The notes beneath the pieces are model-generated. The model was not told the DNA's origin, made no database searches, and saw only the letters and a program-made list of their open reading frames with translations. DNA of 64,000 nucleotides from Lineus longissimus (lineage: Eukaryota; Nemertea; Pilidiophora; Heteronemertea; Lineidae). The translations under genes were made by a program, and so were the position numbers. This document shows positions 6,111 through 60,041 of the stretch, piece by piece (positions within the stretch are counted from its first letter, which is position 1; each line of letters starts with the position of its first letter). The stretch spans positions 13,520,501 through 13,584,500 of the forward strand of contig NC_088311.1 in assembly GCF_910592395.1 (NCBI RefSeq), written 5' to 3'.

Positions 6111-6378
6111 GCAAAAGTCTGACCTGGGTAGGTATGAACTAATAAAATGACATTTCCACAGGAAATGGAAAATCTCAATCCTCACTTTCTTCCTACTATG
6201 GCCTCGAGCGGTAAGGTGGCTAAATAGATTTTCCAAATTAGACTTTGCTAATTGACTATCTGAGCAGATGGACAATATTCTGAGGGCTTGAGAGAAGGCT
6301 ATAGCCCTTTTGCAATGGCCTGGGTGCCACCTTACCGCTCGAGGCCATAGTAGGAAGAAAGTGAGGATTGAGATTGGG
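6111..6378. repeat. second DIRS end copy plus 50-bp inverted repeat
   Basis: Bases 6111-6168 repeat the right arm of the palindrome at 5829-5922 in inverted orientation. Directly after it, 6168-6222 (ending CTCGAGCGGTAAGGTGG) is repeated in inverse at 6328-6378, with a loop of ~105 bases between. This looks like the 5' end of a second DIRS copy, or the hinge of a rearranged one. The Penelope-like coding region begins at the outer edge of the right arm, so its ORF starts inside DIRS sequence. Confidence 0.65.
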
Positions 6379-7155
6379 AAGGCAGTTCGTCATCATGACC
6401 TTAAATCGAGCCCCAACCCAGCTACTACGCATAACAAAGTTACATTGTCTGAGGATGCTTCAGAGGACCTCACTTCAGTGATTAGCCCCAAACCCCGCAG
6501 GATCCCATTGGTTCTTACATATCACCCTGGTTTACCCAACATCACAGCTATCACACGCCAGTTTCTTCCAGTCTTATATCTTAACCCTGCCATGCGAAAA
6601 TGTTGCCCTGAGCCCCCTATTGTGGCATTTCGTAAGCCAAAGAATTTGCGCGATTTTCTTATTAGGGCTAAACTTCCCACCAACACCCAACCCCTTGTCA
6701 GACCTGGATGCGGCCCCTGCTCACTCAAAGGTCCGAAAAGGGGTCGCAAGTGTGAGTTGTGCCAATCACTCCCGACCCAGTCTCACATCGTTAGTTCGTA
6801 TACAAACAAGAAATACCCTCTCCGCCTGAAAAAGACAACTGATTGTGACAGTAAATGTGTTGTTTACTGTATTCAATGCACCCGTTGCACCTCTGTCAAC
6901 CAGTATATCGGCCAGACCACTAACTTTAGAAAGAGGATGAACAATCATATGTCCAACATCCGTTTGGGCAAGGACGACGACCGCGACTGTTCTCTCCTAT
7001 ATGCCCACTTTAAACTCCCTGGTCACTCTATCAAGGACTTGCGTCTCACCATAGTTGAGACGTGTGCTGAGGAGTTTGCTGTACTAGAAGTGGAGAAACG
7101 CTGGATGTGGACTATTAGATCCATTACACCACAAGGGTTGAACACACGTTGCTAA
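6379..7155 (+). pseudogene. Penelope-like element, linker and GIY-YIG endonuclease (5'-truncated)
   Basis: The open frame encodes the C-terminal third of a Penelope-like polyprotein. IPLVLTYHPGLPNI near 6500-6545 is the conserved segment after the reverse transcriptase. A linker with paired cysteines follows (GCGPCSLKG, KCELCQ, near 6710-6765). Next comes the GIY-YIG nuclease: VVYCIQC near 6862 and QYIGQT near 6903 give the two strands, FRKRMNNH the catalytic arginine, and LEVEKRWM near 7088 the metal-binding glutamate. It stops normally at 7153. The frame is intact from about 6379, but the reverse transcriptase is gone. The first ~23 residues of the longer open frame (from 6310) come from the DIRS inverted repeat and are not part of it. 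Confidence 0.85.
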
Positions 7156-7454
7156 TCCCTTTCTATTATGCTACTCAGTTACTTTAATCCTCTTACCTGT
7201 ACTTTTCCTTATTGTTTAGACTCTGCTTGCCTCTTTGTTTTTCCCACCCTTTTAGTTTTCCTTTATTATTGTATTGTATTTGCTGTTGTATTGTCTCCTG
7301 GTTTACTCCTGGTTTACTCCAGGACTTACCATTTACTCTGTATATGCCGTACTGGTAGTTTACTCTCGTGATAGTGCCTGAAGAAGGCCCTTATTTAGGG
7401 CTGAAAATTTGAGCTTTTTGTATGACTTCATCTCAATACAATCGCTCATTATAT
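7156..7454 (+). other. Penelope-like 3' untranslated region
   Basis: T-rich non-coding sequence follows the endonuclease stop. It contains a short duplication (TGGTTTACTCC twice near 7300-7320) and the stem-loop described at 7378-7406. The element probably ends shortly after the CAATAC motif near 7435, because family A sequence begins at about 7455. Confidence 0.55.
7378..7406 (+). ncRNA. hammerhead-like stem-loop in Penelope-like 3' end
   Basis: The bases read CTGAAGA, then a stem GGCCCT/AGGGCT closing a TATTT loop, then GAAA. CTGANGA-stem-GAAA is the core of hammerhead ribozymes, and Penelope-like elements are known to carry such ribozymes. Here an extra A sits between the core and the stem. 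I also cannot find a convincing stem III and cleavage site, so it may be a decayed relic or a chance match. Confidence 0.35.
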
Positions 7455-7535
7455 ACATATTTGACCTACTTTTCAAGGTCCATTGTCAATTAATGGCCCC
7501 TGTCAAACAATGGCCCCTGGCCTTTTCATTTCTTG
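7455..7535 (+). repeat. family A 3'-end fragment
   Basis: The stretch starts with TTTGACCTACTTTTCAAGGT and ends in ATGGCCCCTGGCC followed by TTTTCATT. Both are signatures of the family A repeats seen many times to the right. It lacks the 5' hairpin. Confidence 0.6.
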
Positions 7536-7539
7536 TACA

Positions 7540-7930
7540 CTTAACATGCTTTCTTGGCTTTTGTTCATGATATTTAGCATATTTTTTAAAATGGTGGAGT
7601 GTTGCTCCATAGCTATAGTCATAAAATTAGACTGTTGCGCTTGGCTCTCAGTAAACTGATTCATGGCAGTTACAAGTACAGTACTTTGTTGGGCCTGACC
7701 TTCTCTGACTGGTCCATTCTGGTGCAGTCGTTAGAACATTATTTTGGTGGGTGAGAGCAGTGGCTATGACAGAGCTTTGTACATCTTGGCCTTTAAGTTT
7801 AAGTTGTAGTAAAGCCTGTGGTAGCAAATTTAACGACGATATGTCAAAAACTTGAGTAGCTTTTGGTTTGTCACGACCGCCAGCATTTGCTTCATTATAC
7901 TTTTTAGCTATGTTGGCTTTGCAGCGTAGC
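7540..7930. other. unassigned non-coding sequence
   Basis: I see no long open frame, repeat unit or motif that I can name in this stretch. Confidence 0.5.
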
Positions 7931-10799: not shown

Positions 10800-13410
10800 A
10801 ACCTGATCTACATCACAACTTTTGCTGAACCCGCCGCCTGGCTCTAACAAGCCAGTTTTCGTGAGTACTCTGTACTCAATGTTCGAGGCCCATATTCCTC
10901 ATTCTGATAGAGTCAGCAGACGTAACGATATGCCATGGTTCAACTTAGTGATTAGGAGAGCAATACAGAGGCGTACAAAACTTTTCAAGAAAATGACCAA
11001 GGTTAACAGTGCCGGTAATGTTTACCGCTTCAGGGAAGCAGTGAGGAACGTAAGGGAGCTTGTTACCGGAGCAAAGCGTACACATCACGATAAAGTCTGT
11101 AATTCGCTCAGTGAGCACTCAACAGGTTCGAAGAACTACTGGGCCATCCTGAAACAGCTACTGGGCAAAAAGGTCAGTGGTGGAATAGCGACCTTGGTTA
11201 GTTCCGGTGTTGTCCTTGACTCGGATGGGATGAAATGTGAGGCTTTCCTCAACCATTTCTCAGCTAAATTTCATCACAACTACGTCACATCTACGGTTCC
11301 TGATTTTGGCAGAAGAACCGAGCGTTCGTTATCAGATCTACATGTCTCTAAGGAAGAAATCAGGAAGCTTTTGCTAAAGTTAGACTCATCAAAGGCCGGG
11401 GGCATTGATGGTATTACTAACAAAATGATAAAGCTGGTTGCTGGTTCCCTGGACGAACCGTTAAGTCGGTTATTTAACTTATTGTTGCTGTCAGGTCACT
11501 TCCCTTCAGCCTGGAAGGTGGGTATTGTTGTTCCCATATTCAAAAACAAGGGATCCAAATGTTCGACCGATAACTACAGGCCGGTAACCTTACTGAATTC
11601 GTTGTCAAAGGTATTTGAACGCACAGTGTATGAGGCTATCTTGAGGTACCTTCAGGAGGAAAACTTGTTGTTTGAACGTCAATCCGGATTCCTGCCAGGT
11701 CACGATACTCAGAAACAACTTGTCGCCATTGTTCACAATATCTTGTCAAACAATGATGCAAAACGGGTAACAAGGGGCGTCTTTCTCGATATCTCAGGGG
11801 CATTTGATGCCGTACCACATTATCTCTTGCTAAAGAAGCTCAAAGGTTATGGCATTATTGGAAATATTTTTAATCTCCTTCAGTCCTATTTGAATGATAG
11901 AGGTGTCAGAGTCAGGGTTAATAACACATTATCCAACTTGACCCAACCAGGCTATGTAAACTCAGTAGTACCCCAGGGATCAATACTGGGGCCTCTCATG
12001 TTTCTCATTTACATTAATGATTTAAGTGAATATGTTAGGAACTGTACCTTGTATATCTATGCCGATGACTGCTCACTATTTCTGCCAGTAAGCTACGCAG
12101 AGGACATCAATCTGTCAACAAAATTAATACAGGAAGACCTTCACAGTCTTCTTGCATGGTCGAAAAGATGGAAGCTAGACTTCAAAGCTGAGAAAAACAA
12201 GGAGGTTATTTACCACTCACCTCGTCGTAAGGTCCGCAACTTTGGCTATCTTGAACTAAATGGGAGTGTTATCCCCCGTGGCCAGTCTCACAAACATCTT
12301 GGTATCATACTGGATGAAACACTGTCGTTTCAGCATCACATTTTGTATGTCGTGGGTAAATGTAACAACCTATTGAACCCATTAAAAACTTTGCAGGGTT
12401 CACTACAGTCCAAACACCTCGAGAAGCTTTATTTCTCATTCATATTACCTCACTTGGAGTATGGTTCTGTCATTTTCGACTCGGCAAACATCACTTTACT
12501 ATCTAGACTCGATAAGGTTCATTATCGGGCTGCCCTGATTGTAAGTGGTTGCATATGGGGCACTAATACCACCAAGGTTCTTGACTGTCTGGGCTGGGTG
12601 ACCCTTGGAAGGCGGAGAACGGAGAAAAAGTTAATCCTGATGTACGATGTTGAACATAACAATATACCCACTTACGTTCACAATGAATTTGTTCAGTATC
12701 GAAACCCCGTCTTTGACGGGCGTCTTAGAAATCGCAGAACCTACAATCTTCCTAGAAACATGTCGCAGAATCTCACAAAATCCACAATACCCAGCTCAAT
12801 TAGGCACTGGTCTTCCCTTCCATTAGATGTCCAAACTCGTTACTCTCGAAACTCTTTCAAATATCACTTAAGACTATTCCTAGGCAGGAATCAAATGTCC
12901 ATGGCTACGCCCAAACTAAACCTACCCCGTCAAGCTGAAATCGTTTTGAATAGGACCAGATGTGACCTTATATTCAAAAACCACCTGTTTTCTCATAACT
13001 TTGTAAATGTTAATGACCCTTACTGTAAATGCGGACACAAGGCGCAAACCACACGCCACCTCTTCTTCAATTGCCCTCTTGCCGACATGCTTAGGGTTGA
13101 TCTTTTTGATGACCTGAATACGCTGCCATCATTCACCTTTATATTCTACAACCTTTGCCAAGAAGACAGGCTGCAGTTGCTATTGAATGGCCATTACAGA
13201 TTGTCTATTGTAGACAATATCTTTATCGTTACTAGAGTCAGCACCTTTATTGCTGAACTCTCCATTCTTTAACTTATGAAGCCTGTTTTCAATTATCATA
13301 TCCTTGTTTGTTTAATTCTTCTCTGCCATCATTCACTTTTCTCTATGTAATAATAACCAGGGCTAATAATGCTTGATAGCCCAGCCCTGGGATTCATCTG
13401 TATGTTACAA
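10800..13410 (+). mobile_element. LINE retrotransposon, 5'-truncated, with intact RT ORF
   Basis: The element lacks its ORF1 and nearly all of its endonuclease. It starts near 10807, keeps the whole reverse transcriptase ORF, and has a short 3' region (13273-13410) ending where family B begins. A second, broken copy of the same lineage lies on the minus strand at 49.8-51.5 kb. 5' truncation is typical of target-primed reverse transcription. Confidence 0.85.
10822..13272 (+). CDS. LINE reverse transcriptase with C-terminal zinc knuckle
   Basis: The frame is open for about 816 codons, with no ATG at its head (first in-frame ATG at 10879), as expected of a truncated polyprotein. Residues 30-50 hold the linker after the endonuclease (MPWFNLVIRRAIQRR). 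Reverse transcriptase motifs follow in order: SSKAGGIDGI, NYRPVTLLNSLSKVFER, FLDISGAFDAVPH, VPQGSILGPLMF and the catalytic YIYADDCSLF near 12052. SHKHLGIILDE follows the palm. A CX1CX8HX4C-type knuckle, CKCGHKAQTTRHLFFNC, lies near 13024-13074. The clade looks like the Jockey/CR1 assemblage. The single undamaged frame implies recent insertion, the least decayed coding region in the window. Confidence 0.88.
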   Translation: MLNPPPGSNKPVFVSTLYSMFEAHIPHSDRVSRRNDMPWFNLVIRRAIQRRTKLFKKMTKVNSAGNVYRFREAVRNVRELVTGAKRTHHDKVCNSLSEHSTGSKNYWAILKQLLGKKVSGGIATLVSSGVVLDSDGMKCEAFLNHFSAKFHHNYVTSTVPDFGRRTERSLSDLHVSKEEIRKLLLKLDSSKAGGIDGITNKMIKLVAGSLDEPLSRLFNLLLLSGHFPSAWKVGIVVPIFKNKGSKCSTDNYRPVTLLNSLSKVFERTVYEAILRYLQEENLLFERQSGFLPGHDTQKQLVAIVHNILSNNDAKRVTRGVFLDISGAFDAVPHYLLLKKLKGYGIIGNIFNLLQSYLNDRGVRVRVNNTLSNLTQPGYVNSVVPQGSILGPLMFLIYINDLSEYVRNCTLYIYADDCSLFLPVSYAEDINLSTKLIQEDLHSLLAWSKRWKLDFKAEKNKEVIYHSPRRKVRNFGYLELNGSVIPRGQSHKHLGIILDETLSFQHHILYVVGKCNNLLNPLKTLQGSLQSKHLEKLYFSFILPHLEYGSVIFDSANITLLSRLDKVHYRAALIVSGCIWGTNTTKVLDCLGWVTLGRRRTEKKLILMYDVEHNNIPTYVHNEFVQYRNPVFDGRLRNRRTYNLPRNMSQNLTKSTIPSSIRHWSSLPLDVQTRYSRNSFKYHLRLFLGRNQMSMATPKLNLPRQAEIVLNRTRCDLIFKNHLFSHNFVNVNDPYCKCGHKAQTTRHLFFNCPLADMLRVDLFDDLNTLPSFTFIFYNLCQEDRLQLLLNGHYRLSIVDNIFIVTRVSTFIAELSIL

Positions 13411-17594: not shown

Positions 17595-17872
17595 TATGGT
17601 GATGTAAGAGATGTCATCATGCCTCATGTCACAATCAAGTATGAGACCGTATTGTCACCTGAATGATATCAGAAAAGAGGGTGATTTGACAATCAAGTGA
17701 CCACATTGTAGTCTGATCGATATAAGATAAGAGGGTGATGTTAGAGACGGTATCATGCCTGATGTCACACTCTAAGTAAGACTTCGTTGTAGCCGGATTG
17801 ATATGAGAGTAGAGGGTGATGTAAGAGATGGCATCATCCCTCATGTCACAATCTAGAGACTGCATTGTAGAA
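17595..17872 (+). repeat. 83-bp tandem repeat
   Basis: The block GGGTGATGTAAGAGATG recurs at about 83-base spacing, with ATGTCACAATC and TTGTAG elements between; one unit is shortened. Related units lie at 43390-43510 and 52720-52790, where the 9.2-kb element has inserted. The unit near 17728 preserves the TAA target in uninterrupted form. Confidence 0.75.
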
Positions 17873-29327: not shown

Positions 29328-30824
29328 ATGTTGAAAATCGCTGCCTTATCCTTGCTGATCCTGGTGACAGCCATGCATCAAGGTGAAGACGATGAAGCTG
29401 ATGTAGCCGCAAATGGTATGCCCGACAACAATGATGAAGAAAATGCATTTGCAGACCAACGTGTTCCCCGTCGACGCCAGAGTTATTCCATTGCGGAAAA
29501 GGTCCGTCGCCTGCTGGACTTCCATGGGTTACATCAAGAGGGGAGGGTTCTTGATGCGGCAGAGTATGCACGAAATAATCACATCCCATACCAGACGTTC
29601 CGCACTTGGTTGAATAATGAAGAATGGATTATTGAGCAGGACGACCAGAACCGAGGTCAACGCAGAAGAGTGAGAGAGGGCCATGGTGGTTTGTGGCCGA
29701 CAGTCGAAAACCGCGTCCTAGGACGAGTTCAGAACACGAGAGGAAGAGGATTGCCTGTCTCGCTTGCTGATATCCATGATTATGGCATCAAAGAATTCGA
29801 TTACTATTGGGTAGAATTCCCTGAAAATGAACGAAATCAACTGGAAGCTTCAAGAGCGGAAAGAGCACATTTCCATGCATCAAATGGGTGGGTTAACAAT
29901 TTCAAAAAACGCAAAGGATTATCCCATCGAAAACGGACAAAGAACTCGACGACGATACCAGACGATGCTCCGCAACGTGTACAGGAATTCATTGGTCGTG
30001 TGCGAAATTCAGTCAGAGAATTCAATGTGCAACAAATGGTTAACATGAATCAGACATTCGTACAGTTAGACTTTCCCCCTCTCTACACTTACAGTGCCAG
30101 GGGTGCATGGCAGATCGATGTGAAAACATCTTTGGGCAACCACAAGCTTGGCTGTTCAGTGTCCCTAGCAATCGGTAGCAATGGGGAAAAACTTCCAGCG
30201 CATGTGACCTTTCGGGAGCCTGGATTTGTCCGACAAATTAGAGCATTGCATGAAAACAATGAACTACCAGAAAACGCTGTTTTTTCCAGTTCTCGCACTG
30301 GTTGGGTGAACAATGAAGTGTTAATAGACTGGTAAGATCGTGTGCTATTTCCAAATGTCGGGGATCTACAGGATGCTATTGGTTCCAAAATGTTGATTGT
30401 GGACAGATTTCGTGCACACCTAAGTGAAGCATTCAGTATCCCAGTGATTAACCATGGCCTCCTATTAGACTACATCCCAGCAGGCTGCACTTCCCTGGTG
30501 CAGACATTAGATTTAGTAGTCATGAGGCCGTTTAAGACGCTGGTCAGAAAATATTGGAAACAGTGGAAAGTCTTAAACACTGATGATGATGGTGTATCCC
30601 AACGGATTTCATTGTTAATTTTTTTGCAGATCATAAGCCGTGCCTGGGATGAGGTAGACCCTCATTCAGCAGAACATGCATTTGCTGTAGCAGGACTCAC
30701 GGGTGAACAACAAGTTGTAGGCCTAAATGATTTTGTTCAAGTAGAGGGAGAAGAGCCAAATGATGACGATCTAGAGTTTTTTGACGAGCCACCTGCTACG
30801 GATGATGAATTTGAATTTGAGTAA
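29328..30824 (+). pseudogene. pogo-like DDE transposase, copy 1, mutated first Asp
   Basis: About 499 codons in one frame are interrupted by a single TAA at 30333-30335. An N-terminal helix-turn-helix region (SYSIAEKVRRLLDF, then YQTFRTWL) is followed by a second DNA-binding segment near residues 180-210 (NGWVNNFKKRKGLSHRK). The DDE core has NMNQTFVQLD, MLIVDRFRAH and CTSLVQTLDLVV. The acids should be D-D-D; the first is Asn here (NMNQT), whereas copy 2 at 58.6 kb keeps NMDQT. The second and third acids are 35 residues apart. The tail is acidic. The hydrophobic first 15 residues are probably not part of the real protein; an ATG at 29373 fits better. Two lesions make it inactive. A family A element follows the stop by ~12 bases. 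Confidence 0.8.
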
Positions 30825-43513: not shown

Positions 43514-43762
43514 GGGGCCTTGTCCAAATTATTCGCCGAAATTCACCGGCGAATTTACGGCGAATTTTTACAAGTTCGCCAAAATTCGCCAAAACCTCCT
43601 CAAAAATCGTCAAAAATTCGCTGGAAAGTTCGACAGAAATCGCCTAGAATTTGCCATAAAATCGCCATAAATTCGCCGAGAATTCGCCATAAAATCGCCA
43701 CAAATTCGCCGGAAAATCGCCACAAATTCGCCGGAAATTCGCCACAAATTCGCCATTAAAAC
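43514..43762. repeat. left terminal inverted repeat and ATTCGCC array
   Basis: After the 32-bp terminus, the motif appears twice inverted (GGCGAATTT) near 43549 and 43560 and then about 15 times forward as AAATTCGCC variants until 43762, with ~11-12 bases per unit. The minus-strand gene frame runs into this array, which supplies its last ~36 codons. Confidence 0.85.
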
Positions 43763-44663
43763 GGTTGTCCCGATAGTTGATAAGGTGCGATTTGATGTGA
43801 TGCTGACGGCAGTAGGTCTCCCAGCTGTCTCGTATGCCATTTTTTTCATCTGGTATCGGGCCAGCAACTTCACACACCATTCGGGCAATCCTGAGGGCAG
43901 CAACTTCATGTGCAAAGAATCGGAACTGGGGTAGGTTATCCCGGCCTAGGGTTTCACCAGCAAACTGTACTTCTAATCTCTTTTTAACATATGAATGGAA
44001 CCCAAGTAACACATGAGCCATGCAATGGAACTGATGAACCATACCAATGTTTTCCTCAGACAGTCCACCATCGAGAAGAGTTTCTTTGCGCCATTGATCA
44101 ATGAGTCTGTTTGACATCTTTTCGTTTGCAGCACGGTCGCTCATTAGAAAGGACAGCTTGCCTATTTGATTTTGAATGTAGTCTGCTGGTGATTCATCTG
44201 TCCCAGAGGTACAACTTGTGGCAATTTCTAACAAGTTCTGTTTGGCTGTTTTTGCGATGGTTTCCCCAGTCTCATGGGCAACACTTTGAAACCCTAGAGG
44301 AAAGACCTCTCCTGTGTCAAGAGTGATTGAAGCATTCAGTATTTTTCTTTTCTTCCTTGAAGTTCCGTCCTTACTGTAACCAATGTTTTTCCGTTTACGA
44401 ATCTGTTCCTCATAGTACTTCTTTATCAGAAAGTGACTTTGGTCAGCATTATTTGCACACGCCTGTCTTTTCGGTAATTCTTTTTCACTGAATGTGACAC
44501 CAAAGATGTTGGTTGCAACAGTATTGATGACTAGTCCTATTCTATGCGTGGCAACCTCATGTGATTTAAGTTCTGCAATACAAAGTCTAACATTTGGTTT
44601 TAAGTTCTGAATTTTTACCAGTACCTTCCCTCGAAGTAATGCGTTCATTTTCATCATTGTCAA
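43763..44663 (-). pseudogene. unfamiliar transposase-like protein, RNase H-fold pattern (C-terminal part)
   Basis: The frame runs ~300 codons on the minus strand before reaching the terminal array. Blocks in order are VATHRIGLVINTVATNIFGV, IGYSKDGTSRKKRK, NASITLDTGEVFPLGFQ, LSFLMSDRAANEKMSNRL, VHQFHCMAHVLLGFHSYV and GIRDSWETYC. An acid in a strand (ITLDTG), a second acid in SDRAAN and a C-x-x-H before a hydrophobic helix resemble the layout of hAT-type RNase H-fold transposases, but at a very distant level. I have an impression of similar unannotated proteins in other marine invertebrates. It joins the upstream frame (44767-45683) through one frameshift near 44610 and a TGA near 44767. Function is inferred only from fold pattern and from its place inside a TIR element. 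Confidence 0.55.
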
Positions 44664-45683
44664 CCACTTCTACATACTGATCTGCTTCTTCTACCTGTAC
44701 ACATGTTTCAGCCTGTTCTTGCTTTCTCCCCCTTCTTTTATAGTAGCTTTTCATACTCCTTTCCCTTCAAAGTTGCTCTCTAAGCACCTTATTCTCTTCC
44801 CTCAGTGTCGCCAAAACATCCCCATTCAATGCTTTTATCACTTTCTGCAACTCTTGGATTTTCATCTTGTGGCGGGGTTCCCTGCGTTTAGCATTGCGCA
44901 CGTCAAAGTCTTCAAGTTCTAAAATTTTGCTTTCCAAAGCCTGAAGTTTTCTTTCTTTTACCATGGTTTCTCGGTCAAGATGATGTTGACTTGCTGCCTG
45001 CCTCGTCTGTACTCGACCTGACAAAGTTTCCACCTCAATTGGCGCATGGGGTTCCATCGTCGGGGCTCTGACGGTTGGCAGTGGCAGTGGAACTGGCATG
45101 ACTGGCAGGAGAAGTTCCTCAGTTGGCTCTGGGTGGTTGTCATCTTCAGCTGTGCCAGAGTTTCCAACTGTTGGAAGCAGCACTGGCAGTAGAGGTTCGG
45201 CAGTGGGTACCAAGAGGTCTTGCAGTTCAACTATTGGCAATGGCAGAGGGGGTTCTATCATCGGGGCTGCAACTGTTGGCAATGGTGGCTGAGGGGGTAT
45301 GTCTGCAGGTTGTGCCGCTTCTAAGTTGAATAAAGCTGACTCAAGAGTTCCAAGTTCTTCAAGGAGTTTACATGATCGACATCCATTGCGCAAGCTTGCG
45401 ACTTCATCTAATCTCTCATAAAAAGTGTTTTTGTTCTGCTCAAGAAATGTGGCCAAGTCAAAAGTGACAAGTCCCTTTAACCATGTAAGTGTAGCCTCTC
45501 TATCAAGGCGTAAGCGTTTTCTCTTCCTCTCCAAGTCCAAAACTAATCCAATTGTGAAGAATTCCAAAGACAACGCTATGCCATTTGGTGCAGAGGATGA
45601 TGAAAATACACTTTCTGACAAACCAACTTTGCCAAGGTGGGGATAGCTGATAGTGTTCTTTTTTTTGCCCATTCTGGAAAACA
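44664..45683 (-). pseudogene. N-terminal part of the same gene: proline-rich middle and coiled coil
   Basis: The frame can start at the ATG at 45683 (MGKKKNTISYPHLGKV), just after a good splice-acceptor-like tract (TTCATGTTTTCCAG), so the start could also be an exon edge. Residues 1-130 are mixed charged helix, with a basic run ERKRKRLRLDRE. Residues ~135-235 are rich in P, L and E. Residues ~245-305 look like a coiled coil ending EENKVLREQL. A TGA follows at about 44767, but the same frame stays open and highly charged for ~50 more codons (KSYYKRRGRKQEQ, then VEEADQYVEVVDN), which suggests the stop is a recent lesion. I do not recognise the domain. Confidence 0.45.
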
Positions 45684-46059
45684 TGAATTGGAACCAGTCT
45701 TGGGAATGAAACAGTATCATACTCTTCACCAATTTTTGAACAACTACCACCAAATATAATGTTGGTACTATGAAATAGTGTGCATTGCCATGAAAGAGTC
45801 AATTTTTACCCCCACACACCCCACCAGAGTTCAGAGACAGATGCTTAGGACAATAAATATTGCTACCTTGCACTGGGCCTATATCTAATAAAACAGGCCT
45901 TGTAATTCATCCTGGTTACTCTATGATTAATAATAACAGAAATTCAATGTCATACTCAAGTGCACTTACATCTCAAATCAATGAAATGACTGTTGTTTAG
46001 GACAATATTCACAAATAAAACACTGTTTTCACAAAGTAAATGCATTTGTTTAGTTATTT

Positions 46060-46760
46060 CTTCAAACACGTTGGATATGGCATTCTCCGGTAACGGCGGC
46101 GTAAAATCAAAGTACGTTACGCTACACTCAGTGCAACACGCCCGCCGAAGAGTATCGCGGGGATTCCCCGGGAATTCCGCCTGCGACACTGCTTTGGAAG
46201 CGAGTTATTGGACGATCAGATCTCCGGGGCAACAAGCGCGTCATGATCGACGTGAGGCGTGGCTACGCGACGCGCTTCGACCAATGAACGTCGCGGCTGG
46301 CTGTCAATCACTGACAGAGCGTCGGTCGTTCAACGGCTGTCGTTGTGTACATTGAAGCGGGGGGTATCGGCTTGTTTAGTGGCCTGTTACTGGGGTAATC
46401 TTTTGTAAATTATTTAATGAGTTATATCACTGCAATCTGTGAAGCTTTAGGAATCTGGTGATTACAAACATTATGCATCCGCAATGATTTAGCGACTGCA
46501 GTAGCCGGGAGAACTCACCTCAAAACTTTCCGAGCGGCCCATTCGAAAACGGAACTGGTTATGCGGGCTGAATGGCGAGCTCTCCTCTGATTGGTAAAAA
46601 AAAAATGGTAGCGATCCGATGAGTCGTCTGCTCGCTGCACTGCTTCCCGCGTAAATGACCATGGAAACCAAAGTGACTCCCGCGTGTCGCGGCTACATTG
46701 ACGCCGTCGGAGTTATTTATCTTGCGCTACAAGGCGTACATTAATAGTAAAAAATATATA
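46060..46760 (-). promoter_or_regulatory. CpG-rich promoter-like patches with CCAAT boxes and a splice donor
   Basis: CpG density jumps at 46080-46370 and 46490-46720 compared with AT-rich flanks. CCAAT boxes appear as GACCAATGAACG near 46279 (plus) and ACCAATCAGAGG near 46590 (minus). On the minus strand, TTTTGAGGTGAGTTC at 46511-46525 gives a strong splice donor, following an ATG-initiated stretch from 46657. This could be the promoter and first exon of the minus-strand gene downstream at 43.8-45.7 kb. Confidence 0.45.
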
Positions 46761-46799
46761 ATTTGTTGTATATTATGGAGAATTTGATGCTCTTTCTGA

Positions 46800-48480
46800 T
46801 GGTATATTGCTTTTTTCAATTCAAGCAAAGGAATAATGAGGTAAAACAATATTTTATAACGAGGTGCAATTTATTGAGCGGATAACATCAAAATCCAATA
46901 CACTAATGACGTTGTGGTGGTAATGCTAGTAACACACTTCGACATTTGAGAAGAACATGACAAATTCATGAAATAAAACACTTAATCAGGCATGTCAGGT
47001 GAAATGTGAATTGTCATACGGCTATATTGTCTTTGTACTCGCTGTGTATGAGCTTGTTATGAATGAAATTTGTCACTGTAGGCCTGCCTCGGCTATTTAA
47101 TCATTGAAGCAGTCTTCAATGGCATGCCCGCTGCCATTTTCGCTGTCATGTGACCCGTACTCCACGTGACCCCTGGCCGGTTCGTCTCATAAGTTGGATA
47201 CATCGGGGCCACTCTCTGTAATGTAATGCTAGACCAATAAGGGACGAACTGCTACCTGCCTTTTGCGAAAATGATTGGTTGATGCAATGTAGACCACGCC
47301 TCTGCATTAATTATTTCCATGTGATGTCTAGCGTCACAATGTCACCTCAGGCAAAGTGATTGGCTGATTCAAAAATAACATGGGGCATGCACCTGGTGAC
47401 TGTCTGATCATCCCTAAAAATAGCACAGGGATAGTCTGGCCACCCCCCAAACAGCTATCTTTAAGAAAAGCTCCACGCACGGGCGTTACATAGCAAAATA
47501 CACTACAGGGCTGCAAGATCTGTATGCGCAGCGGGCTGCGCAGTAAGCTAAAATGCGTGGTGCTGGAATTCCCTCACTTTTTTGAGGGCACATAGGCTCA
47601 ATTTACAGCGGAGTCGGAGCGGAGCGCATTGAGGATATGGGCTAATGTAATGCAAGAGAGTGGTTGAGTGACTCTAGGGAATCCGCCTTCTCATTTTCAA
47701 AAGGAGTATGTTTTCACGATTAATATTTGGAGTAAGTAATAGAGTTTGGTGGATTTCATCATTACAGATTAAGTAAGGTAATATTCTTTTGTGGAAATCG
47801 GTTTTGAAATTTTTGAAAATAATGTTTTATTTGAAAATCTCTATAAAACCATGTGATTAGACACCGGAAGCCAACGCCCCCAAATCACCATCCTCGGCAC
47901 CAGTGGTTTTCAATATGCTCCGGCTCTCGATATTATATTATTTTGTAGGGACAAAGGAATCTCAAAAACCTGTATCTCAGGATGCCAAATCACTTTTGTG
48001 TATTCTTTATGCCAAGGTATATAATGGAATCTCAGTTTCTAAACATTTTAACGTTTTCTATCGATAGAAAAGACGATATTTTTTGCTGGGTAAAGTATTA
48101 CAGTTTTCCTGTAACAGTGATTCAACATTTGGGGCCAGGGTAATTATGGAGGTAGAAATTGGCTAGTTGGTGAAGATTCGGATTCTGATGTTGGAACAAT
48201 AGTGAAATTGGAATCTGAAAATGGAAATAATGGGAAATTGTTTTGTTTGGAAATTAACATCTAATATAATATACCAAGAAATGACAGAAACCCTGAACTT
48301 AATACGATCTGTTACTCGTAGCACGATGTGACTTTTCATAGATTTTTGAAGTACTAGAAAGTGGTAGACTGTTACAGAATGCCATACATGTATCTTCATG
48401 TAAAATTTTAATGTAGGGTGGTTCATGTTCAATAGGAGAAAAACTGAAAATGTAATCATGAGGATACAACTGGATGATGC
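46800..48480. other. unassigned interior of the 9.2-kb element
   Basis: AT-rich with scattered short frames; a small GC-rich stretch near 47510-47640 reads GCGCAGCGGGCTGCGC. I see no gene. Confidence 0.4.
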
Positions 48481-48500
48481 TACTGTAATACTGATATTAC

Positions 48501-48564
48501 CTTCTGTTTCAGATACTTCTGATGGGAACATCCAAAGGTCATCTTCACTATCACTGTCAGAGTC
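48501..48564 (-). CDS. candidate 64-bp internal exon, acidic
   Basis: On the minus strand, CTTTTCCCGGCAG (acceptor with a pyrimidine tract and an upstream CTAAT branch-like motif) is followed by an open stretch encoding DSDSDSEDDLWMFPSEVSE, then a GTAATA donor at 48500. Acidic Ser/Asp repeats are common near nuclear localisation or interaction segments. Its partner exons are not identified. If it belongs to the minus-strand gene at 43.8-45.7 kb, it would be an upstream exon. Confidence 0.4.
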
Positions 48565-48898
48565 CTGCCGGGAAAAGTTGAATTAGGAACATTCAAAAAA
48601 TGAAAGTGACTACTAGTATGCAATTAGACCACATAAATGCCTTGCCTGTATTGGTTCTTGAGTTGTGGGGCGGGCAAACTGACAGGGGAGGTCATTACAC
48701 CACAGACGTTTCAGGTCTGTCACCATTAATATTTAAAGGTTCTTGAGTTAAGGAGCAGAATGCGAAAGAGCAATTGTTAATGTGGTGGCCATCTTGGATA
48801 TGGACAGGGATATGGGGTCCGGTCCAAAAGTTATAGGGAACCTCCCACCCCGGAGAATCAAAATCCTCAACTCCGGGCAATCGGTGCCAAGTCCAGAC

Positions 48899-49290
48899 TC
48901 CGAGTCCACAGCCCCAAAAGTGGTGTTACATTAACACTCAAAATGAGTGTGCCTGGAACACCCATTTGTAGTGTAGACAACCACCCGACACTAATTATTG
49001 GTGTCCAATTTTGAACACCACAGACAAGTGTCGGCCCAAACACCCACATTAGGTGTCCAATTTTGAATACCTGTGGGGGGTGTTGTGGTAACACTAATAG
49101 TCAGTGTTGACATCTCGAACACCCATTTGTAGTGTAGACAACCACCCAACACCAATATAAGGTGTCCTGTTTTGAACACCACAGGCATGTGTCCACAGGC
49201 AAGTGTCGGGCGAACACTACACTACCAGGGTATTGACTCAACACAACTTTTAAGGGTTTATCCAACACTGCCAGTGAATGTATAAGGTAC
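48899..49290. repeat. AACACC/GGTGTT palindrome-rich array
   Basis: The motif AACACC or its complement recurs roughly every 15-30 bases, often as imperfect palindromes around AATTTTG. One longer unit (AACACCCATTTGTAGTGTAG) occurs at 48957 and 49119. Related sequence stands at 51825-51945, beyond the LINE. Small minus-strand frames here are by-products. Confidence 0.7.
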
Positions 49291-49379
49291 CGGTGTAACA
49301 TCTGTGGTTGTTCCCCATGTGTCAGTGTTTCGAAACAATAGGCAGCCAGAGAGACCATGACTTTTCAAAAGGGGGAAAC

Positions 49380-49840
49380 ACAGAAAAACTTGTCAATCTA
49401 TCTTTGAGCGTTCCCAAACAATGAGGGGAAACACTCATAAACAGAAACACTCAAAAACATTACACCTGGGAATCGGGATGGAGGGAAAAAATAAATGGTC
49501 GGGAAAATCGGCACAGAGCTGCCGTCGGGAAACAGGGTTTTTCTTATTTGACGGGAAACGGGATCTTTCATGTATTATCTGTATCGGGATCGCTGAAATC
49601 GCTTTATGTTCATGTCTTATTTCTATCTCGCCATTTTCCTAAGACACTACTAACCCATTAAATCGGTCATATGTAATGTGACATATTCTCATAGTACTTT
49701 ACTTATTATCACTTCCATGTTCAAGACTGCCAATGAGTTTGTGGTAAAAATTATCTCGTCAGTATGCTTTTTGCGCATTCACATTATACTGTCCCCATCA
49801 TCATCGTGGGGCAGACGTGATGCAGCGCTGCAAGCCCTTT
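49380..49840. other. GGGAATCGGGAT motif region
   Basis: GGGAATCGGGATGG at 49468 recurs at 51752 on the far side of the LINE, and CGGGAAA-type motifs cluster at 49500-49560. This suggests that the LINE inserted into an element flanked by these motifs. Confidence 0.4.
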
Positions 49841-51494
49841 CAATGGTCGGCAAAGTAATTTACCACAGCAAAAATAAATTTGGCAACTCTTTCAACCACT
49901 TTCTTGTTAGTAGCTGTTGAAAGGGAACTGTGACCATACAAGAGGGCTTGCAGGCGCTCATCTATGCGGTGAAAATTGACAAAAGAAAAGTTGGTCAGCC
50001 AACCCAGGTCATTGAACAGTGAGACACGAAGATCTAGAAGTGGAGGGCAGTCGAGAAATATATGTTTTGTGGATTGATTCTTAAAACCACAGGTGCAGGA
50101 TGGGCTTTGTACATTAGTAAAATTATGACTAAACAGGTGTGATTTAAAGATCAAACCACACCTGGTTCTATTTAGATATAGTTCTTCATACCGGGTTAAA
50201 TCTAATTTAGTGGAGACAAGCGGGTCTTTTGGCCCTTTCCGAAGTAATCTAAGATTATATTTAAATGAATTACGCGATAAACATTGCTTGACATTAGTTG
50301 GTATAGTGTCCCATGGACTTGGAGAATCCCTGGGATACATTCAGAGGAAGACGATATGGTCTAGGTTGCCTAAGTCTAGCATCTATAACCTGATTACGAT
50401 ATGAGTTAAAAATTTTACAAACATATGACGGGACAGAATGATTTTCTACATCGTACATTAAAATTACTTTCTTTTCAACTCGACGGGAATCAAGTGTCAT
50501 CCAGCCAAGCCTTTTATACAGTTTCATATGATTTGTTCCATGTAGACAGCCACTAACTATTATGGCAGCCCGATAATTGATCTGATCAAGTTTAGCTAAT
50601 AAAATCTGGCGAGCAGAGGCAAAAATGATTGAACCAAATTCAAGATGAGGCAGGATAAAAGACATGTACATTTTTTCAAGATGTTTTGATCGGACTGATG
50701 ATTTTAACAATTTCATCGGGTTTAGCATAGCATTACATTTGACAATTAGATCGGTAAGATGTTCACTGAAGTTAAGACATTCGTCAAGGATTAAGCCGAG
50801 ATGTTTATGAGAAGAGCCCCTATGAATCATGTCCTGATTCAAGTGAAGCTGACCATGATTCCTAGCTGCTCTCCGCGGCGAGTGAAAGACTACTTCCTTA
50901 CTCTTGGATGCCTTAAACTCCAATTTCCACAATTTAGACCATTCTGACAGCCGGTCAAGGTCTTCTTGAATCAGGTTTGTTGACAAATCAGAATTGTCAT
51001 TACAGTGAACAGGAAAAAACAAGGAACTATCATCGGCATACAAATAGAGAAGACAATTTTGTACCACATCACTGAGATCATTGATATAAACAAGGAACAG
51101 AAGCGGTCCTAAAATTGACCCTTGAGGTACACCACAATTGATAAAGTCCGGTCTAGACTTCTCAGAATAGCTTTTATTGACACGTACACGAATACTTCTA
51201 CCTAATAGGTATGACTTAATAAGAGAAAATAAATTACCCCTAATTTCATGGGCTTAGAGTTTCTTAAGTAGGAGATAGTGAGGAACTGCATCAAAGGCAC
51301 CGGCAATGTCAAGAAAAACACCCCTAGTCTCCATGTTAGACTCCCTATTAGACAGTATCATGTGTGTTATATCAACAAGTTGCTTCTGGGTATCGTGCCC
51401 AGGAAGGAACCCAGACTGACGTTCAAACAGAACCTCATTTAAGTGTAGATGTTCAAGCATACTGTTATAAATCAACCGTTCGAACACCTTGATT
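49840..51494 (-). pseudogene. LINE reverse transcriptase, second copy of the 10.8-kb lineage
   Basis: On the minus strand homology begins abruptly at KVFERLIYNS (51494), so the copy is 5'-truncated within the reverse transcriptase. It shows FERQSGFLPGHDTQKQLV, FLDIAGAFDAVPH, VPQGSILGPLLF, the catalytic LYADDSSLFF and SHKHLGLILDE. The zinc knuckle CTCGFKNQSTKHIFLDC follows near the end. The same blocks occur in the intact copy at 10822-13272, at lower overall identity. Two lesions are seen: an in-frame TAA at about 51254 replacing a lysine codon, and a frameshift near 50315. It is nested inside the 9.2-kb TIR element. Confidence 0.88.
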
Positions 51495-51499
51495 TTTAT

Positions 51500-51824
51500 G
51501 TCTGTGAGTTATTCAGATGGTGACAATGATGAAGCACCGAACTTCATGCTCGGTGGTACATACACGAACAAGATTTGGTAGAACGGCTTCCTGTGGATTA
51601 TTAGACTATTTGATGAAATGGTTTGGCGAGCAGATTATTTTCCTTTTTCCCAGCATGACTAGGCATCTTAGATTGTACTAATTGAATGTTGCATTCACAC
51701 CATAACGTGCTACATTCCATTTAGCGGGATTCGGCCAATATTGCTGTCGGGAATCGGGATGGGCCATTAATTTTAGCGGGACGTCAGGACAGGTACCCCC
51801 CTTCCCCCCCTCCTCTATATACTG
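51500..51824. other. unassigned spacer right of the LINE
   Basis: The stretch is non-coding and contains the second GGGAATCGGGATGG at 51752. I see no gene. Confidence 0.4.
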
Positions 51825-51945
51825 GTGTTGGATGTGGCCAACACCCATTTGACACCGAGAATAGGTGTTGACACTTGCCAACACCATCGTTCAACACCCA
51901 AACTTGGTTTTGAATAGGAGCTGACACTCACTTCGGGTGTTGGCT
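51825..51945. repeat. second AACACC/GGTGTT array
   Basis: GGTGTTGG, CCAACACCC and GACACC motifs alternate in palindromic arrangement, as at 48899-49290. Together the two arrays could be the ends of an element of about 3 kb nested in the 9.2-kb one. Confidence 0.6.
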
Positions 51946-52329
51946 AATGTGGCAAACAGCTCAGTGGTAGGGCCTACAGATTATTATCAGTGGAGAAAAT
52001 AAAGTTTGTTTTTGATGCCATAAAGGGTCTGAAGTATATGGGCTTTCAAAGGTCATTATCAAAAATACGTAAAAACATTACAAGCAGTCGCACATTAGAT
52101 GCACTGCAGACCATTTGGGCAAGAGCCAGTGCCAGTCCCAGTGCCAGCGTGCCAGTGCCAGGTATTGAACCAACCCCTTGTCACGTGACTGCCCGATGTG
52201 TCCTGTAGAAAAAACAGAGAAAAAATCTTGTACTCACCATTACAGAAATCTCTCTGTTCTCCATTGGACGTACAATGAGGAGGATGACGATACAAAGAAC
52301 AGGGTGAGCTGTGACTGCTTTCTGGTAAA
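51946..52329. other. non-coding with a GTGCCA minisatellite
   Basis: CCAGTGCCA-type hexamers repeat at 52125-52162. AGCTCAGTGGTAG at 51959 looks like a tRNA D-arm, but no tRNA follows it. I support no gene. Confidence 0.4.
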
Positions 52330-52716
52330 AAAATGCGCCCAAAAATACGGAAATTCGCCAGATTTCGGCGATTTTCACTTCGCCTCTGCTCGTCGAAATT
52401 TGCCTGGTATAAATTTCGCCAACGTTCAATGATAAAAACTCGTCGAAAAATCGTCGGGAATTCGCCGAAAGTTCGCCTGAAATTCGCCTGCAATTCGCCT
52501 GAAATTCGCCATAAAATCGCCGCTAATTCGCCAAAAATTCGCCGATAATTCGCCATAAATTCACCGAAATTCGCCTTCAAAATCGCCCAAACTTCGCCAA
52601 ACATCGTCAGAACTTCGCCAAAATTCGCCGGAGACTTTTGGCGAATTTAAGGCAAATTTGTGACATTTTTGGGGCGAATTATGGCGAATTTCGGCGAATA
52701 ATTTGGACAAGGCCCC
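52330..52716. repeat. right ATTCGCC array and terminal inverted repeat
   Basis: About 25 forward ATTCGCC-like units occupy 52335-52625; orientation then flips to GGCGAAT for the last ~85 bases, and the element ends in the inverted copy of its 32-bp left terminus. Compared with the left array it is longer, and it switches orientation at about 52633. Confidence 0.85.
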
Positions 52717-54335: not shown

Positions 54336-54765
54336 TTAGGCTACCAATGATGTCACAGATAGGCGCCGGTAAGCCGTTTCACTACAGGCGGTCGGGACCT
54401 CCTTTAGCGCACTGTTATTAGTAGGTAGATCACTTCTAAGCAACATGTGGCGCGTTGAAGGTGATGTGGCGATGGACTTCGTTGAGGGAAATGACCATGG
54501 GTATAAAATGCGGGCTACTTTTTGTTTTACTTCCCGTTTTAGGCCCTGCCACTTATCTTTTATGCTACTGAGATTTCTTGTAGAGACACCTACAGCATTA
54601 ACTTGCTGAAGGATATCGGTGTATATAGCATCTTTATTCCTCTGCGTCATTTTGGCCAAGTCTTTGGCCGTAAACTTTGCATTATTACGGCTAAACAGCC
54701 TCACAATAATACGTTTTTCGGCCTCCAAATAATCAACAGTACGATTTCGTTTAGGCTTTAGACTG
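54336..54765 (-). CDS. Myb/SANT-like DNA-binding domain exon
   Basis: The minus-strand frame reads KPKRNRTVDYLEAEKRIIVR at its head and later QQVNAVGVSTRNLSSIKDKW and LKREVKQKV. An acidic first helix, then N-A-V-G-V-x-x-R and K-x-K-W-x-x-L-K-x-x-V-K, is the Myb/SANT-like pattern of PIF/Harbinger accessory proteins and many host regulators. An acceptor-like CGTTCCGCCCAG stands upstream at about 54766-54777, so the ATG at 54728 may be internal to the exon. The frame stays open ~45 codons past the domain and stops at 54336. No Harbinger transposase is seen nearby, so host gene or transposon origin cannot be decided. Confidence 0.6.
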
Positions 54766-58644: not shown

Positions 58645-60041
58645 ATGATGGCGGAAGGTGGGTTACCTGCCCGCCGCCGAAGCTATACAGTTAAAGAAAA
58701 ACGTCAACATCTAACTGACTTCGAAAATGTCCTGGCTGCTGGAACGGTACAGACTGCTCGTGAATATGCCGAACACTACCGGATACCATTCGATACATTC
58801 CGAAAGTGGGAACCGCAACGAGCAAAGTTTGAAGAAGCTGCAACGGACCACAAGAAAGCTCGCCGCAGACTACGGGATGATCATATGATGGTTACTGGCC
58901 CGAAATTGAACACATGCTACACGGGTGGTTTCTTGTCGAAAGGGCCAAAGGAATAACAGTTTCATGTTTAGAGATACAGGAGAAAGCCACCCATCTCTTT
59001 AACGAATGGTGGGATGATCTGCCACAGGAAGAAAGGGACCGTCTCATCCAGACAAGACCAGAACAGGTGCGCTTTCAAGCGTCGGTGGGATGGTGTGATC
59101 GCTTCAAGGAGAGGAAAAGGATTTCCTTTCGTAAGAAGAATAAAAACAGCACGCTTATCCCAGCCGATGCTCAAGCTCGCATCACCGTTCTACGAGATGA
59201 ATTAAACGCTCTTGTTGATGCATATCACCTAAGGCCAGAGGAGCTATTCAATATGGACCAGACTTTTGTATTGTTTGATTGTCCTTGCCTCTACACCTGT
59301 AGCACGCGTGGTGAAATGAACATTGATGTACGTACTTCCAGAACAAACGTCAAATTAGGATGTACAGTCACGTTATGCATCTTGAGAGCGGGCGACAAGC
59401 TCAAGGCCCACATAACATTTCCTCGCAGAGGGTTTGTCGGACAGCTGGCAGAGCTAGAAGCAATGGACCTTCCAGATAATGTTGTTGTTACCTCATCTCA
59501 AACTGGATGGATGCGCCTTGAAACTGCTCTGCACTGGATGACAGAAATCTTTGAACCACACGTTGAAGAGAATAGACAGAATGAGAACTTTGTACTTCTT
59601 GTCGACAGATACCGGGTGCATCGGTCAGAGGACTTCGGTATGGCAGTAACAAACCTTGGGGGTATCCTGCAATTCGTCCCTGCAGGCTGCACGTCACTGG
59701 CTCAGCCTTTGGATATCGCCGTCATGTACTCCTTCAAGTCAAAGATTAGAAGGCATTGGAAAAGGTGGAAAAAGGAGAGGACGGGCATGGATGGCCAATG
59801 CGATCCTATCAGACTATGAGATGTAGTAGCGATCATCAGCAACGCTTGGACTGATGTTTCACCGGATCGACCACGCCGTGGATTTGAGGTCCTGTTGGAT
59901 CGCGACGGGGCAGCAGAGGAAGCAGAGCCAGTGGACGCTGATCACCACGACGCTGATGAGAATAACAATGATGGTGATGCAGTGTTGTTTGTGGACATGC
60001 CAGCCCACAGTGACAGTGATGAGAATGGTAACGATGAGTAA
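58645..60041 (+). pseudogene. pogo-like DDE transposase, copy 2, catalytic triad retained
   Basis: From an ATG near 58645 the frame gives a helix-turn-helix region (SYTVKEKRQHLTDFE, then FDTFRKW). A frameshift near 58890 moves it to the frame that opens around 58914. A second DNA-binding part (VGWCDRFKERKRISFRKK) and the core follow: LFNMDQTFVLFD, FVLLVDRYRVH and GCTSLAQPLDIAV. Asp is present at all three catalytic sites, and the last two are 35 residues apart. A TGA at 59817-59819 interrupts, but the frame stays open through an Asp-rich tail (DADENNND, HSDSDEN) to a TAA at 60039-60041. Copy 1 at 29.3 kb shares the same layout but is clearly diverged. Confidence 0.85.

Follow-up and report, generated by a model that had tools for sequence, protein, structure and literature searches.

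When a gene with transposase-like motifs lies just inside one end of a DNA transposon, it is natural to ask whether it encodes the enzyme that moves that transposon. The question is raised by a 9.2-kb element (43514-52716) in the window studied here, a 64-kb stretch of the Lineus longissimus genome, in which both termini are packed with copies of a degenerate ATTCGCC motif and a minus-strand gene lies just inside the left end. A first-pass annotation of the sequence had taken this gene for the element's transposase and the combination of ends and enzyme for a new one. Comparison with the 391-Mb host genome (positions given without a contig label are those of the window) leads to a different answer. 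The element belongs to a family of transposons flanked by TAA, here called the TAA family, and the minus-strand gene is a damaged remnant of X, a different transposon inserted in the TAA element. The account as a whole, in which a non-autonomous TAA-family copy was enlarged by other elements, with X nested in it and then truncated, is held with high confidence.

That 43514-52716 is a genuine copy of a cut-and-paste DNA transposon follows from its termini and its target site. The inverted tips GGGGCCTTGTCCAAATTATTCGCCGAAATTC at 43514 (+) and 52716 (-) are identical over 31 bases and agree at 33 of the first 34, close to the 32 bp first reported; the first 24 bases have no further match in the window at up to three mismatches, and the maximum in 100 shuffles was 0. 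The first 20 bp of the terminal inverted repeat (TIR) of the family read GGGGCCTTGTCCAAATTATT, and the tip string is also written GGGGCCTTGTCC / GGGGCC. TAA borders the element on either side. The joined flanks rebuild a local repeat with a unit of about 81-83 bp, matching the repeat at 17708-17870 at 78% over 169 columns (E 2e-30), so that the uninterrupted target recognized in the first pass is upheld by alignment.

The expectation of further genomic copies was borne out as well. The 24-base tip has 71 matches in the genome (at most three mismatches; 37 and 34 on the two strands), and a reversed-pattern control has none on either strand. These tips form 32 convergent pairs, of which the shortest spans 207 bp and the longest 56.9 kb; 28 are shorter than 1.6 kb, and seven tips have no partner; the left 300 bases identify at least 33 near-complete left ends, the window's included (40 of 62 candidates scored). 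Twenty loci around left-end matches (L009-L028) were fetched, 16 of them with both tips; copies of 0.2-0.5 kb fall outside this sample. Equal 3-bp flanks, TAA or TTA, are present in 16 of the 17 two-ended copies (the window's and the 16 fetched), the sole exception being L012 with TTG and TTA. Two of the copies, L015 and L016, have identical flanks and represent one insertion, duplicated. They lie about 31 kb apart at C8:16618688-16650734, with a gene for the Harbinger transposase domain DDE_Tnp_4 some 17 kb from each, and are probably a segmental duplication that carried the transposon along. The TAA family looks like a group of non-autonomous cut-and-paste transposons, with dozens of copies that are mostly shorter than the window's. 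The 9.2-kb size of the latter is a result of nesting and is not typical of the family. No published description of the family was found in literature searches, which did not extend to Repbase; in text searches the longer TIR and array strings occurred in no paper and GGGGCCTTGTCC or MSDRAA only in papers with unrelated titles, the letters of the X TIR not being among the queries.

The origin of the minus-strand gene is decided by the boundaries of the block in which it lies. The match to the family ends at 43755 (element base 242) and picks up again at 46929 with L022, L012 and L014, in which the X insertion site is uninterrupted; other family copies run 500-700 bp beyond element base 242, a stretch that is missing in the window. 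A 69-bp match on contig C17 led to a locus that is 97.5-98.5% identical to window 43745-46928 and whose similarity stops at 46928. This base is the tip of X itself: the window sequence ends there in the same GGTGGTAATGCTA that terminates the C17 copy, which runs from TAGCATTACCACCACA to GGTGGTAATGCTA between two copies of CTTTCAG. The C17 gene is interrupted by a 1565-bp insertion and extends past the point at which the window's gene is cut, through an ERxFGxLD block. Two complete X copies of 5228 and 5229 bp, 99.48% identical, have 13-bp TIRs TAGCTATACCACA and 7-bp target-site duplications (TSDs), GTGCTTG and ATATAAA. Since position 46928 equals the C17 X tip, the block is a copy of X that has lost its opposite end, and the gene belongs to a transposon with TIRs and TSDs of its own. 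X is inserted just before GTAACAC at 46929. The TAA element would have inserted first and X later; the loss of the far part of X is explained most simply by a subsequent deletion, which would also have taken out some 0.7 kb of the host element and brought the X gene up against the left array at 43755/43756.

The arrays are a feature of the TAA family itself. At up to one mismatch to ATTCGCC, the left array holds 18 motifs (16 forward, two reversed) and the right array 26 (20 and six), near the 15 and 25 estimated earlier. The motifs, also written TTCGCC, are spaced at exactly 11 bp through long runs, and their orientation flips close to the tips as described in the first pass; both long arrays point the same way, the inversion being confined to the tips. 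In two in-phase runs (21 units, hand-picked from the motif list), deviations from the consensus number 8 of 147 positions in the 7-bp core and 29 of 84 in the 4-bp spacer. Counted from the left tip, a landmark immediately beyond the array lies at distances of 242 to 298 bp, always within 1 bp of 243+11k, in 13 of the 14 copies measured; in L020, the fourteenth, the landmark was not found. Because these distances step by 11, array lengths differ between copies by whole units. The arrays might serve as repeated binding sites for a Harbinger-type transposase or a partner protein. Short motifs repeated inside both ends are also found in CACTA/En-Spm (TnpA sites) and hAT elements (the subterminal repeats, STRs, of Hermes), and available portions of two papers describe such repeats of CACTA/En-Spm and Hermes as bound by the transposase or a partner (PMC8195511; PMC10368747). 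Unlike these, the TAA family has its motifs in an 11-bp phase, and its copies grow or shrink by complete 11-bp units; Hermes also makes 8-bp duplications, as opposed to the 3 bp of the TAA family. The 1565-bp insertion in the C17 X gene (6170-7734 in the joined coordinates of L030 and L029), where the match edges overlap by eight bases, has TTCGCC motifs in inverted arrangement at both of its own ends, so that ends rich in TTCGCC may occur outside the TAA family as well.

As to the enzyme, the TAA family is probably moved by PIF/Harbinger-type transposases, which would act in trans from elsewhere in the same genome. According to accessible parts of the literature, 3-bp TWA duplications are a Harbinger trait (PMC4482050; PMC9179366) and PIF/Harbinger TIRs range from 25 to 50 bp (PMC9179366). 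The TAA family has TWA duplications in 16 of 17 two-ended copies and an exact TIR of 31 bp, and resembles the non-autonomous elements of the PIF/Harbinger (PHIS) group also in its short copies and in a host rich in DDE_Tnp_4 genes, with at least 150 matches (150 of 1318 candidates scored, all above the cut-off). It departs from them in the long same-orientation TTCGCC arrays at both ends, and in that no transposase or Myb gene was found inside its copies. Harbinger elements carry Myb/SANT-like genes. Neither these nor DDE_Tnp_4 were matched by Pfam when 24 of the 73 stop-to-stop frames of the window copy (those of at least 50 amino acids) and pieces of the X gene were scanned. Such a lack is expected of a non-autonomous copy, and because of it the family is described as Harbinger-like and not filed as Harbinger; a Repbase rule, as given in the part of the source available, requires agreement with a known member over the first 11 terminal bases (PMC4455052). 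An open reading frame with a Myb/SANT-like domain (Myb_DNA-bind_5, E 1e-11) lies just outside the element at 54336-54728 (-), with no link shown. A DDE_Tnp_4 fragment outside the 150 listed matches lies 2.2 kb from the C19 tip, past a truncated copy. At L024:2355-2978 (-) a Harbinger DDE_Tnp_4 fragment (E 2e-33) is found about 1.1 kb past the truncated right array of a copy without a right tip; given 1318 candidates in 391 Mb, it was not taken as linkage.

Movement of the family by an unknown transposase, one that likewise produces TWA duplications, is unlikely, though this alternative merits a hearing. The arrays of TTCGCC are out of the ordinary and no Harbinger gene was found within a copy, but TWA duplication and TIR length fit PIF/Harbinger, and such genes are numerous in the genome. 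There is little to recommend a giant autonomous parent, for which the candidates are the 29.6-kb tip pair on C5 (C5:13715625-13745271) or the 56.9-kb pair on C30 (C30:50461-107317). Both have convergent tips with matching sequence variants, but the C5 flanks differ (TAA left, AAA right) and likeness to the family ends is confined to about 80 bp (left tip) and 65 bp (right tip), on which grounds the C5 pair was rejected.

For the foreign block, Pack-type elements provide another model, as they capture pieces of genes by template switching during gap repair. Transduplication of a 3.2-kb piece of a C17-like gene would suit the sharp edges of the block and the 3-bp microhomology (CCA) at the left junction, 43755/43756. 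It was rejected as a sole explanation and is very improbable, since the right edge coincides exactly with the end of a transposon that has TIR and TSD, which is not expected from random capture, and L022, L012 and L014 retain the family sequence past the block as an intact site. Least credible is the original proposal that the gene is the TAA element's own transposase, for although it starts to appear 250 bp inward of one tip and shows motifs like those of transposases, it is bounded by family-sequence junctions and X's own tip, complete X copies have independent ends with other TIRs and 7-bp duplications, and tblastn of its two parts against the 20 fetched loci (16 two-ended copies) found no match. 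The nesting of X thus leaves the gene a passenger and no new pairing of ends and enzyme; the first-pass annotation had itself named a passenger gene as the alternative, coupled with full-length relatives carrying a Harbinger transposase, and these were not found.

Some observations weigh against parts of the preferred account, that of a Harbinger-like copy with X nested and truncated inside it. The window lacks the far end of X as well as the second of its 7-bp duplications, so that the deletion step is a reconstruction. No autonomous partner was found, the nearest of the 150 scored DDE_Tnp_4 matches being 12.4 kb from any of the 71 tips. Across 14 aligned copies, pairwise difference is 4.2% in the array cores, 2.1% in the spacers and 1.4% in the inner region, or 2.1%, 1.9% and 1.3% without CpG-type sites; the cores are no better conserved than the inner region, and constraint on them as binding sites is therefore unsupported.

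Transposon X is, judged by the similarity of its copies, a multi-copy (at least tens of copies) and recently mobile transposon. The C17 protein matches at least 95 stretches of the genome, many of them in open frames of 500-1200 residues; the count comes from the 108 candidates, out of 126, that were scored, and includes the query and two pieces of the window gene. Over 3.95 kb, identity is 99.4-99.5% for three X loci and 99.0% for two more. X may be autonomous, moved by its own putative DDE-type protein. An alignment of seven sequences (A1), including the window piece and one partial sequence, has the conserved blocks DGTSR, DRAANEK, CMxH, NRFN and ERxFGxLD (in fuller form CMxHVLLGF, KDNRFN and ERxFGxLDAS), the H of CMxH reading Y in L037. 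The two D residues, the C/DxxH motif and the E of the C/DxxH group are all present, the choice of catalytic D and E being made by motif only; in L033 and L039, respectively, the spacings are 69 and 78 residues from D1 to D2, 37 and 35 from D2 to C, and 307 and 310 from D2 to E. The D+CxxH motif in the window's reading frame alone is weak, as it also occurs in 142 of 2000 shuffles, and two single-sequence models of the window protein, considered for an RNase H fold, were of low confidence, with mean predicted local distance difference test (pLDDT) scores of 44.5 and 49.6.

The C/DxxH signature is shared by hAT, P, MuDR, Kolobok and Dada, with duplications of 4-10 bp, in the accessible parts of two sources (PMC3706591; PMC10045372). 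X resembles this group in its D, D, CMxH and downstream E and in a 7-bp duplication inside that range; it differs in that Pfam and PDB searches of the gene and protein, a check suggested in the first pass, gave no significant match. Scans of viral and prokaryote contigs found no relative. The long D2-E distance is reminiscent of hAT. Membership in hAT is unsupported by Pfam: no hAT model matched at E <=5 (three L029 frames) or <=1 (the seven A1 members), with HMMER filters dropping most weak matches. All three X copies with both ends have a 7-bp duplication, as against the usual 8 bp of hAT, and the available part of one paper tells of hAT lineages that make duplications of 5, 6 and 7 bp (PMC12730594). 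Kolobok, whose traits as listed in the accessible text include TTAA duplications and a THAP domain (PMC6004289), was rejected since the X duplications are not TTAA; no Pfam match to THAP was found in the parts of X scanned, which did not take in all upstream exons. Dada targets small RNA genes; the 33 kb of sequence surrounding three X copies gave no match in an Rfam gathering search, which a gene split by insertion could escape.

The remaining features of the window copy are collected in the table below. The ACACC/GGTGT-rich repeats at 48920-49330 and 51820-51960 stand on both sides of the long interspersed element (LINE) fragment and are possibly the ends of yet another nested element. Elsewhere in the window, Tc5-like transposase genes (HTH_Tnp_Tc5 and DDE_1 matches) lie at 29328-30824 and 58914-59819 (+), the first split into two frames. 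Two more open reading frames on the plus strand match GIY-YIG (6310-7155) and a LINE-type reverse transcriptase (10822-13272; 816 amino acids).

Table. Coordinates of the TAA-family copy, its nested sequences and its target site in the window.
Feature	Position	Strand	Basis or remark
Paralogous uninterrupted repeat, serves as empty site	17706..17870	.	flank alignment
Left TSD, TAA	43511..43513	.	flank comparison
Left TIR, 31 bp exact	43514..43544	+	tip match, genome tip search
Two reversed motifs directly inside left tip	43548..43565	-	motif scan
Left ATTCGCC array, 11-bp period	43572..43755	+	43755 is last family-shared base (element base 242)
Foreign block, end-truncated X copy	43756..46928	-	homologous to X copy at C17:5113884-5121748
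X gene, catalytic-region part (DGTSR, SDRAANEK, CMAH)	43767..44669	-	cut near ...YRDNRFN at array junction
X gene, upstream part from ATG, P-rich, coiled-coil-like	44770..45672	-	stop and frame change before catalytic part
Candidate 5' intron of X gene	45674..45969	-	splice-site-like sequences only
High CpG observed/expected stretch upstream of X gene, possible promoter	46100..46900	.	base composition
X terminus, GGTGGTAATGCTA on + strand	46916..46928	-	identity with C17 tip
Host-family internal sequence resumes, 99% to L022	46929..47029	+	uninterrupted X site in L022, L012, L014
Stretch not found in other fetched family copies; LINE fragment and ACACC-rich repeats inside	47030..51821	.	family comparison
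LINE reverse-transcriptase fragments	49843..51508	-	within 47030..51821
Host-family right end, 93% to L013	51822..52716	+	family alignment
Right ATTCGCC array, 11-bp period in main part	52333..52630	+	orientation as left array
Five reversed motifs, right tip	52640..52699	-	motif scan
Right TIR	52686..52716	-	tip match
Right TSD, TAA	52717..52719	.	flank comparison

The locus is an instance in which the host genome itself serves to put right a pairing of transposon ends and enzyme that was plausible but mistaken. The phased 11-bp arrays, varying by whole units, provide a testable case for multi-site end recognition. Of the two transposons, X may be an undescribed lineage and is the find of greater interest; no profile library that was searched names its protein. 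A wider proposal, that X represents an undescribed animal cut-and-paste lineage at the superfamily level and that the arrays of the TAA family are a new type of transposon end, is put forward tentatively, as a possibility that falls short of an even chance. Relatives of the X protein are presumably common in invertebrate databases. Should X prove to be undescribed, its genes would appear as uncharacterized host proteins in the annotations of genomes that carry it.

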